From positions 1-64,000 of the forward strand of contig CABZCA010000007.1 of assembly GCA_902524115.1 (NCBI GenBank): 64,000 nucleotides of DNA, read 5' to 3'. The position numbers were made by a program, and so were the translations under genes. The notes under the pieces were generated by a model. It did not search any database, was not told the origin of the DNA, and was given only the letters and a program-made list of their open reading frames with translations. Shown one piece after another: positions 39,619-43,335 of the stretch. This DNA is from an uncultured Pelagibacteraceae bacterium (GTDB lineage Bacteria; Pseudomonadota; Alphaproteobacteria; Pelagibacterales; Pelagibacteraceae). Position 1 is the stretch's first letter. Every line of letters begins with the position of its first letter.

Positions 39619-41358
39619 TTATTCAGTTTCCTTTTTCTTCTTATCATCTAATTGTTCAGAGAGTGAAGAGAATGGAAGATTTTTACCACTTAGAGGACTT
39701 GAATGCTCTCTGATTGCTTTAGCATTCATTATCTCCTCAAGTAATTTAATACTTAAAGATACTTTTCTCTTCTCAAAATTCAATTCTGATATTGCTGCAT
39801 CTATTCTTTCACCTCCAACAAATCGGGATGGTCTAGCATCACTACTGCTCATTGCTATCTGAGATTTTTTTATTAAAATCTCCACATCACAATCCTCTGG
39901 TTTTACTAGCAAACCTTTATTATCTGATGAAATTACCTTCACAGTAACGGTATCGTTAATTTTTTTTGATCTGAACCAATCAAAAGGGTCGTTTTGCATT
40001 TGTTTTAAACCAACTCTTACTTTTTGATCAGATTTTTTAATTTCTAGAATTTTTACCTTTAACTTTTTCCCTTTTTCATATTTTTTCAATTCTTCTTCGG
40101 GTTTGCCAGTATATGAAAGATCATTTGAGTGTAAAAATCCATCAATATCAAAATCAGCCAGTTTAACATAAATTGCGTAATCATTAGAATTATTTACTAC
40201 TCCTTCAATTTCTGATCCTACTGGATAATTATTTTCTAATATGGAATATGGGTTATCTTGTGTTAACCTATGGGAAATCGCAACTCTTCTTTTTTCCTTG
40301 TCTATTTCAGTAATTACACAATCAATTTGGTCGCCTACATTGAATATTTTTTTGGGTGAAATATTTTTCTTTGTCCAGCTAATCTCACTACTATGAAGCA
40401 AAGTGCTTAACCCAGGCTCTAATTCACAAAAACATCCATAATCAGTGATCTTTACAACTTTTACCATATATTTGCTGCCAATCTGGTAGTTAGAAATGTG
40501 TTCAAATGGATCTGGGGATAATTGTTTAAGAGAACATCCAACTTGTAATTTATCCATATCAATTGAAATGACTTTTAAATTGTGTTTTTCACCAATATTA
40601 AATATCTCATCAGGATGGTTAACTCTACTATAGCTAATTTCTTGGAGGTGGCAAAGCGTGTCAATTGTGCCCTCTGGTGTTGTCACCTCAAAAAAACAAC
40701 CAAATGAGGAATATCCTTTTACCACAGCATCTTTGATAATGTCTCCAACCTTAAATTTTTCTATTATTTTTACTTTATCTTCTTTTTTATTTGATGATAC
40801 AACTTGTCTTCTGGATACCACACTATTCCCTCTCACCATATCAAGTTTAATGAGAGCAAATTTTTGCTCTACACCTATTAAATGATCAATATTTTTAATT
40901 GGCTTATCAGAAATTTGAGATCCTGGACAAAACATAAGAGAGCCTGTTTCTATATGTTCAACAATTACTCCTCCTTTTGTTTTTTGTGTAATTTTTCCAT
41001 TAATTAATTCATTGTTCTCATAACATTTTACCAGCTTATTCCATCCCTTTATCTTTTGGGCTTTATGAGCTGACACTACGACATCACCATTCTTATCCTC
41101 AATTTTTTCTAGGAGTACAGAAATCGTTGAGCCCTCTTTCAAACTTTCATCAATACCAATCAATTTCATTTCATTAATGTCAATTACTGGTTCACTTTTT
41201 AAACCTGGTATAAAAAGAAAAACATACTTATTTGTTATTTTTGTAACTTTCCCATCAATTATCTTTCCTTCTTCAATTTTATTCTTTGATAATTGACTGC
41301 TTAATAACTTTTGGAATTGCTTAGTTTTTGGTGATGATAGGTCTTTATAAATTTCCAT
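39619..41358 (-). CDS. rpsA: 30S ribosomal protein S1
   Basis: Multiple S1 repeats (GKITQKTKGGVIVE, VKITDYGCFCELEPGLSTLLHSSEISW). Confidence 0.95.
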   Translation of the reverse strand: MEIYKDLSSPKTKQFQKLLSSQLSKNKIEEGKIIDGKVTKITNKYVFLFIPGLKSEPVIDINEMKLIGIDESLKEGSTISVLLEKIEDKNGDVVVSAHKAQKIKGWNKLVKCYENNELINGKITQKTKGGVIVEHIETGSLMFCPGSQISDKPIKNIDHLIGVEQKFALIKLDMVRGNSVVSRRQVVSSNKKEDKVKIIEKFKVGDIIKDAVVKGYSSFGCFFEVTTPEGTIDTLCHLQEISYSRVNHPDEIFNIGEKHNLKVISIDMDKLQVGCSLKQLSPDPFEHISNYQIGSKYMVKVVKITDYGCFCELEPGLSTLLHSSEISWTKKNISPKKIFNVGDQIDCVITEIDKEKRRVAISHRLTQDNPYSILENNYPVGSEIEGVVNNSNDYAIYVKLADFDIDGFLHSNDLSYTGKPEEELKKYEKGKKLKVKILEIKKSDQKVRVGLKQMQNDPFDWFRSKKINDTVTVKVISSDNKGLLVKPEDCDVEILIKKSQIAMSSSDARPSRFVGGERIDAAISELNFEKRKVSLSIKLLEEIMNAKAIREHSSPLSGKNLPFSSLSEQLDDKKKKETE

Positions 41359-42013
41359 TAATTAATAATTTTTTGTCTATAATAGCTTTTATCTTTTTAA
41401 AGCAAGCCTTCTTACTTAATTTAGTAGTATTAATCAAGATAGAATCTTTTGTTTTTTTCAGTGGGCCATGTTTTCGTTCTTTGTCAGATTTGTCCCTTTT
41501 TTTAAGGCTTTTAAGCACTTCATTATATGTAATTTTTTTGTTTAATTCCTTATATTCAACAAATCTTCTTTTTGCTCTTACCTTGAGGCTAGCAGTAATA
41601 AAAAACTTGAACATTGCATCTCTTACTTGAATTGTGATTATATCTCTTCCATCTAAAACAGATCCCCTGTATCTTTTTGGTGGCTGATAAGCACATTTTT
41701 GTTGAAATTTGTGAACAATATTTCTAATTTTTTTATCTTTTGCTATTTCAGAAGCAGCCGTTGCAACTTCATTATTTAATAACATTTTGTTTTTTAAATA
41801 ACTAATTTTTAGTTTTTCAATTTTATTTTTAACATACAAATATGAAAATTTTCTTTTATTATTAAGTTTCAGTTTTCCTATATACCTATAAATTTTTCCA
41901 GTATCTAAATAATATAAATTATAATGCTTACAAATTAATTTTGCTTGAGTACCAGCACCTGCTGCTGCAGGTGAGTCAATTGCAACTGTTATTATATTTT
42001 TCCTTTTTTTCAA
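41345..42013 (-). CDS. cmk: cytidylate kinase-like protein with non-canonical P-loop
   Basis: YYLDTGKIYR, VLDGRDIITIQVRDAMFKFFITAS, RDKSDKERKHGPLKKTKDSILINTT; Walker A reads SPAAAGAGT. Confidence 0.88.
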   Translation of the reverse strand: MKKRKNIITVAIDSPAAAGAGTQAKLICKHYNLYYLDTGKIYRYIGKLKLNNKRKFSYLYVKNKIEKLKISYLKNKMLLNNEVATAASEIAKDKKIRNIVHKFQQKCAYQPPKRYRGSVLDGRDIITIQVRDAMFKFFITASLKVRAKRRFVEYKELNKKITYNEVLKSLKKRDKSDKERKHGPLKKTKDSILINTTKLSKKACFKKIKAIIDKKLLINGNL

Positions 42014-43335
42014 TGAATTCTAGCTCCAATTTTCCTCAAAATTTTAAGAAAATTTGGAAAAGATGTATTAGCACTTTTTTTATCGTTAATTTTCCAATTC
42101 CCACCTAATGTTAAAGCTGTGATGCAAGAAAGAAAAAAAATTCTATGATCTTTCAAAAAATTTTTCATTTCAAAGTTTTTTGATAAAATTAAATTTGGAT
42201 TACCATAAATATTTATATCATTATTAAACCTCTCTATTTTAACTCCAATCGATTTTAAAAATTTAATTCCTAAATTTAATCTCTTTGATTCTTTCTTATT
42301 CATTTCTTCTAAATTTTGAAATCTCGATATACCTTTAGCTTTTGCAGCAACTAAAAATATTATTAAAAACTCATCAATTGCAGAACTATTTAAATTTGAT
42401 GGACAGTTTATAGATTTTAAATCTTTTTTACTTTTTACAACAACATCTGCTATTTCTTCTCCATTATAAATTTTTTTATTTTTCAGTTTTATATTTGCTC
42501 CCATCTTATTTAAAATAGTTATAATTCCTAGTCTACTTCTGTTTACATTTACATTTTCAATAATAATCTGTGATTTATTCGAAAGAAGAGTTAAAACAAT
42601 AAAAAAAGATGCTGAACTAATATCTCCTGGAACATCGTAGTCAAATGACTTAAATTGAGTTTGGCCTTTTATTAATATTTTATCAATTTTCTTTCTATTT
42701 TGAACATCTATAGGATAATTCAAAAATTTTAACATTAATTCAGTATGGTTCCTTGATTTTTTTGAGTTTAAAATAGTTGTACCAGGGGTGTGAAGAGCAG
42801 CCAAAATTATACAGGACTTTACTTGAGCGGAACCTATATTTTCATTGTATGTAATTGGCCTAAGAAAATTGCTCCCATGTATTTCTATTGGTAGACAATT
42901 ATTTCTGCTGGTTATATTAACACCAAAAAGTCTTAAAGGTTTAATAACTCTAGAAAAATCTCTCCTAGACAAGCTTTTATCACCAATTAATTTTACTCTA
43001 AATTTAATTTTAGCTAGTAAGCCAAGAATTAACCTTGCAAGGGTACCAGAATTTCCTGCATTAATTGTAATTTTCTTTTTTATGTCAAAATTGTTTAGAC
43101 CTAATCCTTCTATGTAATAAGTATTTCTAATTTTTTTAAAGTTTACTCCAAGTTTTTTTATAGTTTTAAGCGTATTTATTACATCCTCTGACTCAAGAAG
43201 ATTTTTAATTTTAGATGTGCCAACTGCTTGAGATGCTAAAAGTATTGATCTTATCGAGATACTTTTATCTGAGCTAACTTTTATTTTTTTCTTAAAGGTT
43301 TTAATTTTATTACTTATGAAAATATGATCAGACAT
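42010..43335 (-). CDS. aroA: 3-phosphoshikimate 1-carboxyvinyltransferase
   Basis: SSDKSISIRSILLAS, NAGNSGTLARLILGLL, GDKSLSRRDFSRVIKPL, DVPGDISSASFF. Confidence 0.94.
   Translation of the reverse strand: MSDHIFISNKIKTFKKKIKVSSDKSISIRSILLASQAVGTSKIKNLLESEDVINTLKTIKKLGVNFKKIRNTYYIEGLGLNNFDIKKKITINAGNSGTLARLILGLLAKIKFRVKLIGDKSLSRRDFSRVIKPLRLFGVNITSRNNCLPIEIHGSNFLRPITYNENIGSAQVKSCIILAALHTPGTTILNSKKSRNHTELMLKFLNYPIDVQNRKKIDKILIKGQTQFKSFDYDVPGDISSASFFIVLTLLSNKSQIIIENVNVNRSRLGIITILNKMGANIKLKNKKIYNGEEIADVVVKSKKDLKSINCPSNLNSSAIDEFLIIFLVAAKAKGISRFQNLEEMNKKESKRLNLGIKFLKSIGVKIERFNNDINIYGNPNLILSKNFEMKNFLKDHRIFFLSCITALTLGGNWKINDKKSANTSFPNFLKILRKIGARIH

Follow-up and report, generated by a model that had tools for sequence, protein, structure and literature searches.

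Cytidylate kinase (Cmk) recharges the RNA and DNA building block CMP, and in enterobacteria its gene usually stands in the order aroA-cmk-rpsA. The lysine of the Walker-A motif, or P-loop, is regarded as necessary for holding the phosphates of ATP; few residues in biology are as strongly conserved, and mutating it is a routine way of inactivating P-loop enzymes. Among the WNK protein kinases, the catalytic lysine is missing from its usual place and is supplied from another, and for these enzymes the relocation has been shown. In the CMP kinase of Thermus thermophilus (ttCMPK), the P-loop residue Lys15 forms a bridge between the beta-phosphates of ADP and CDP, and the transferable phosphate is bound by Arg153 and Arg171 (PMC7259600). 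In mycobacterial CoaE, also a P-loop kinase, a Lys14Ala mutation lowers kcat by only 19%, and Asp32 is catalytically critical (PMC3019153).

Here we analysed a window of 64,000 nucleotides, meaning the whole stretch of DNA under study, from the draft genome (79.7% complete) of an uncultured Pelagibacteraceae bacterium. Its cmk gene (Table 1) begins with a TTG codon overlapping the stop codon of aroA and lies in the gene order lptB-aroA-cmk-rpsA-ihfB-pyrF-trpF. The encoded protein scores above the cut-off of the PF02224 (Cytidylate_kin) profile (140.7 bits against 26), at the border of that of the NCBIfam cmk equivalog TIGR00017 (135.5 bits against 135.55) and below that of PF13189 (Cytidylate_kin2; 26.8 bits against 28). 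An AlphaFold model of the lysine-less Cmk, which has a mean pLDDT of 83.4 and moderate confidence in the P-loop block (mean pLDDT 68 over residues 11-20), predicts the Cmk fold: the 21 best-matching PDB entries are Cmk without exception, with E-values from 6.1e-14. This predicted fold, the length and the aroA-cmk-rpsA operon are shared with bacterial Cmk of known structure (Escherichia coli, 1KDO/2CMK; Staphylococcus aureus, 2H92; T. thermophilus, 3AKC), as are the CMP-binding Ser/Thr-Gly-x-x-Tyr-Arg, the DGRD motif and the RDxxDxxR of the LID.

The P-loop is different. Where canonical Cmk has DGPxxxGKGT, the minus-strand codons at 41948-41977 (gac tca cct gca gca gca ggt gct ggt act) read DSPAAAGAGT. 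In alignment with solved Cmk structures, S14 (41972-41974) stands for the first P-loop glycine and A20 (41954-41956) for the Walker-A lysine. An earlier note on this DNA had pointed to both substitutions within 41948-41974, that is S14 to T22, and to the retention of DTGKIYR, DGRDI and RDxxDxxR; our reading bears it out on each count. Because SPAAAGAGT lacks the lysine of a GxxxxGK(S/T)-type P-loop, the protein is classed here as a lysine-less homologue of Cmk and not as a canonical Cmk.

Table 1. Coordinates of cmk, its operon neighbours and its active-site features in the window
Feature	Position	Strand	Basis or remark
cmk, lysine-less cytidylate kinase, 222 aa	41345..42013	(-)	ORF; PF02224 and TIGR00017 profiles; fold match
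aroA (EPSP synthase), upstream operon neighbour	42010..43335	(-)	PF00275
rpsA (ribosomal protein S1), downstream operon neighbour	39619..41358	(-)	five S1 domains; synteny
P-loop D13-T22, DSPAAAGAGT	41948..41977	(-)	sequence read
DTGKIYR (37-43)	41885..41905	(-)	K40 at 41894-41896, candidate substitute cation; R43 corresponds to CMP-binding Arg
DGRD (121-124), CMP-phosphate Arg and cytosine Asp	41642..41653	(-)	invariant in lysine-less Cmk; roles of equivalents from PMC7259600
LID arginines R149, R150	41564..41569	(-)	invariant
RDKSDKER (173-180), LID/catalytic R173, D177, R180	41474..41497	(-)	R173, D174, D177, R180 invariant in lysine-less Cmk
K187, second candidate cation	41453..41455	(-)	K or R in 38/38 lysine-less representatives

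The altered loop is conserved well beyond the window and is shared by many SAR11 bacteria of the ocean. Across 107 distinct lysine-less Cmk of Pelagibacteraceae, drawn from single cells, MAGs and single-contig genomes, the lysine position holds Ala (101 sequences) or Gly (6), and the first P-loop glycine is Ser in every one, so the conservation that the earlier note proposed to check is present. S14, G19 and G21 never vary, and A16-A18 hardly do. At the DNA level, a degenerate pattern for the motif matches in 61 of 297 Pelagibacteraceae genomes and in 59 of the 127 that are at least 90% complete, while the reversed pattern, used as a control in the same search, gave 0 matches. Across the phylum, a degenerate pattern covering only some of the possible lysine-less P-loops hit 20 of 399 genomes, one of the hits coming without a locus, and among the loci returned only the window's own encodes a Cmk. 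The canonical GK is found in the aligned PDB Cmk and in all 30 Cmk sampled from other alphaproteobacterial families, and the Adk of the same genomes retains its GPPGAGKGTQ with a canonical GKGT.

The lysine-less Cmk are under strong purifying selection: the median pairwise dN/dS is about 0.17 over 1682 pairs, many of which lie near synonymous saturation (median dS 1.06). All four GCN codons are used for A20, and both TCN and AGY for S14, yet the serine is invariant. A sequencing or assembly artefact might be suspected in a draft genome as incomplete as the window's; we reject this explanation, and chance, since the motif recurs, its synonymous sites varying freely, in more than 100 distinct sequences from genomes of all three kinds, single-cell, MAG and single-contig. 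A Cmk with the canonical lysine is indeed present in some sibling genomes, which the earlier note would have taken as a sign of error, but theirs belongs to a different lineage (about 38% identical) and is not a corrected version of this one; with the loss both conserved and selected, the observation stands.

Some individual records deserve mention. One copy (L137, 3001-3649) has a match length that is not a multiple of three, hence a frameshift, and was excluded from the structure alignment. A contig titled Parcubacteria group bacterium (L102, NYYU01000013.1) bears a typical Pelagibacteraceae lysine-less cmk and is probably mislabelled or misbinned. A phage origin of the lysine-less Cmk was rejected, phage Cmk being less than 60% identical and the search giving no viral contig relative. 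No earlier paper on lysine-less SAR11 Cmk was found in the literature searched, which reached few subscription journals.

The lysine-less proteins form one clade, with an SH-aLRT of 99 on all columns and of 98 when the P-loop and position-40 columns are removed, in which case extra members are added. Within it, SxxxxG(A/G) takes the place of the Walker-A GxxxxGK of other bacterial Cmk, and the DTGxxYR motif carries Lys or Arg. A basal member (L170, genus g9) has Ser at the lysine position (DATAGSGSTS), and another member (L231, g156) reads DSPAAAGAGS. Two sister Cmk of genus g6 (L040 and L060) have an intact lysine-bearing P-loop, DGPAASGK(G/N)T, and differ in this from the clade; they share with it the operon position, a lysine in DSGKLYR and the stretch AYNPPKxFxGS(V/I)LDGRDI. 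As these lysine-bearing proteins combine the shared stretch with DSGKLYR, the sequences suggest that Lys40 is most likely older than the loss of the P-loop lysine. We propose that the Walker-A lysine was lost once, in the ancestor of the clade, that the loop was then fixed as S-P-A-A-A-G-(A/G)-G-T, and that the Lys40 already in place may have made the loss tolerable.

The slot between aroA and rpsA occurs in three states within the window's genus: with a lysine-less Cmk, with a canonical-lysine Cmk of the ADGSSASGKTT type in close relatives, or with no cmk at all. The second state was seen in five congeners, whose Cmk are about 36-39% identical to the window's: G004 (C3:101600-105600, L181), G068 (L148), G133 (L157), G223 (L158) and G169 (L159). 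In all five, the flanking genes are far more alike than cmk; between G004 and the window, rpsA is 89% identical and cmk 38%. These are apparent cases of in-place gene replacement. Since one type of Cmk replaces the other in the same slot, we infer that both do the same job, which suggests that the lysine-less and canonical-lysine Cmk are functionally equivalent. In the third state, aroA adjoins rpsA with no cmk match between them (L213-L217, L237-L250, L252-L253); several genomes with an empty slot, including the single-contig G062 and G063, have a canonical cmk of the CDGESASGKST type elsewhere. In genera g5 and g7, cmk and the upstream aroA share one open frame of 657-669 aa (L151, L152, L154-L156), which suggests an AroA-Cmk fusion. 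The operon cmk of G191 (L230/L251, C1:62366-62996) is split over two overlapping frames; this frameshift marks either a pseudogene or an assembly error.

The earlier note had also called for a search for another CMP/UMP kinase; in the single-contig lysine-less genomes G012, G066, G067 and G070, a search for Cmk turned up no further intact copy. A second PF02224 match was rejected as a MiaA-like protein with GPTASGKS, and PF13189 gave only the same gene or sub-threshold matches in these genomes. The lack of a second enzyme there bears on whether the protein might be a pseudo-kinase kept for structure or regulation, with CMP phosphorylation left to some other enzyme or absent from the cell. The missing catalytic lysine and the frameshifted copy in G191 could be read in this way, but the invariant catalytic Arg and Asp residues and a dN/dS of 0.17 make it hardly probable at all.

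Elsewhere in the active site the known residues are retained. Compared with the ADP and CDP contacts of the Thermus enzyme, all equivalents other than the lysine are invariant (R43, R97, R123, D124, R149/R150, R173, D177 and R180), as are the CMP-binding set (S/T-G-x-x-Y-R, Arg110, DGRD) and the LID arginines with RDxxDxxR. We consider it likely, from these sequence comparisons, that the protein still works as a CMP/dCMP kinase although its P-loop has no lysine, the missing charge being supplied by the LID arginines and probably by Lys40, inherited from a lysine-bearing ancestor. Phosphate transfer from ATP to CMP would be retained; the beta-phosphate would be held by the backbone amides of the P-loop and by Thr22-Mg2+, and the charge bridging donor and acceptor phosphates would come from R149/R150, R173 and R180, with a further contribution most likely from Lys40 or Arg40 of DTG(K/R)IYR. 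This substitute cation is the least certain part of the explanation.

Among the columns compared, Lys40 is the best candidate for such a cation. Position 40 is Lys or Arg in 105 of the 107 lysine-less Cmk (36 of 38 representatives) and in 16% of the lysine-bearing Cmk sampled within the family, an association that has no statistical power because the loss has a single origin and thus gives one independent pair. In our own motif alignment, position 40 falls where Adk and CoaE have a catalytic Asp (DTGKIYR against STGDMLR and DGDVLAR, respectively), and the CoaE residue aligned with it is Asp32. Among further Lys/Arg columns, K209 falls in the C-terminal helix, K168 was rejected because it is Asn in L228, and K187 remains the second candidate. 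Two lysine-less Cmk have Met (L009) or Leu (L128) at position 40, so that K40 either is not strictly needed or is served there by another residue. It is possible, if somewhat doubtful, that the catalytic cation has been relocated to the DTG(K/R)xYR helix and the P-loop remodelled to SPAAAG(A/G)GT; a pre-existing lysine would have enabled this P-loop analogue of the WNK relocation. The likeness to WNK kinases is one of concept only; their fold is unrelated, and for Cmk the relocation is a proposal.

Since the P-loop lysine of ttCMPK bridges both transferring phosphates, the activity of the lysine-less Cmk could be much reduced. A slow enzyme with no substitute residue, for which backbone amides, Mg2+ and the LID arginines suffice, might serve SAR11 bacteria because they grow slowly and need to recycle little CMP. 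The absence of K40 from L009 and L128 fits this reading, as do the lineages with an empty operon slot and, among them, four draft genomes (G185, G189, G192 and G204, 90-92% complete) in which no cmk was found anywhere. So does the CoaE Lys14Ala mutant, a P-loop kinase with the same Lys-to-Ala change that keeps 81% of its kcat (PMC3019153), though it is an engineered protein and the lysine-less Cmk a natural, fixed state. We nevertheless think it unlikely: the loop is not drifting, given its invariant S14, G19 and G21 and nearly invariant A16-A18, and position 40 is kept as Lys or Arg almost throughout.

Two P-loop positions, Gly to Ser and Lys to Ala, have changed in concert and been fixed together, which might instead reflect another phosphoryl donor or another nucleotide as acceptor. 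Three lysine-less copies outside the operon, in non-core neighbourhoods, could be taken in the same sense: L177 (G135) and L228 (G211, which also has a canonical operon cmk) lie near a gene resembling ATP sulfurylase, and L232 (G122) has a sialate-synthase-like gene and one for a KdsC-like phosphatase nearby, all identified by eye. Against this, the CMP-binding residues are invariant, and the core-operon lysine-less Cmk fills the slot held by a canonical Cmk in sister genomes; a changed donor or acceptor is accordingly quite improbable. The three readings that the earlier note had offered thus fare differently: best supported is that of an alternative phosphate-binding residue, with Lys40 as best candidate; weak activity is possible; and the invariance of the CMP-side and LID residues, the place in the operon and the lack of another Cmk make a changed role less likely.

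A clade of nucleoside monophosphate kinases in which the loss of the lysine has been fixed under purifying selection is a natural test of the need for this residue, and the lysine-less and lysine-bearing Cmk in the same slot of close relatives form ready-made pairs for comparison. The clade also cautions that a missing lysine is no ground for calling P-loop proteins inactive. If the preferred explanation is true, a bacterial group that ranks among the most abundant in the ocean would harbour a natural family of P-loop kinases that work without the Walker-A lysine.
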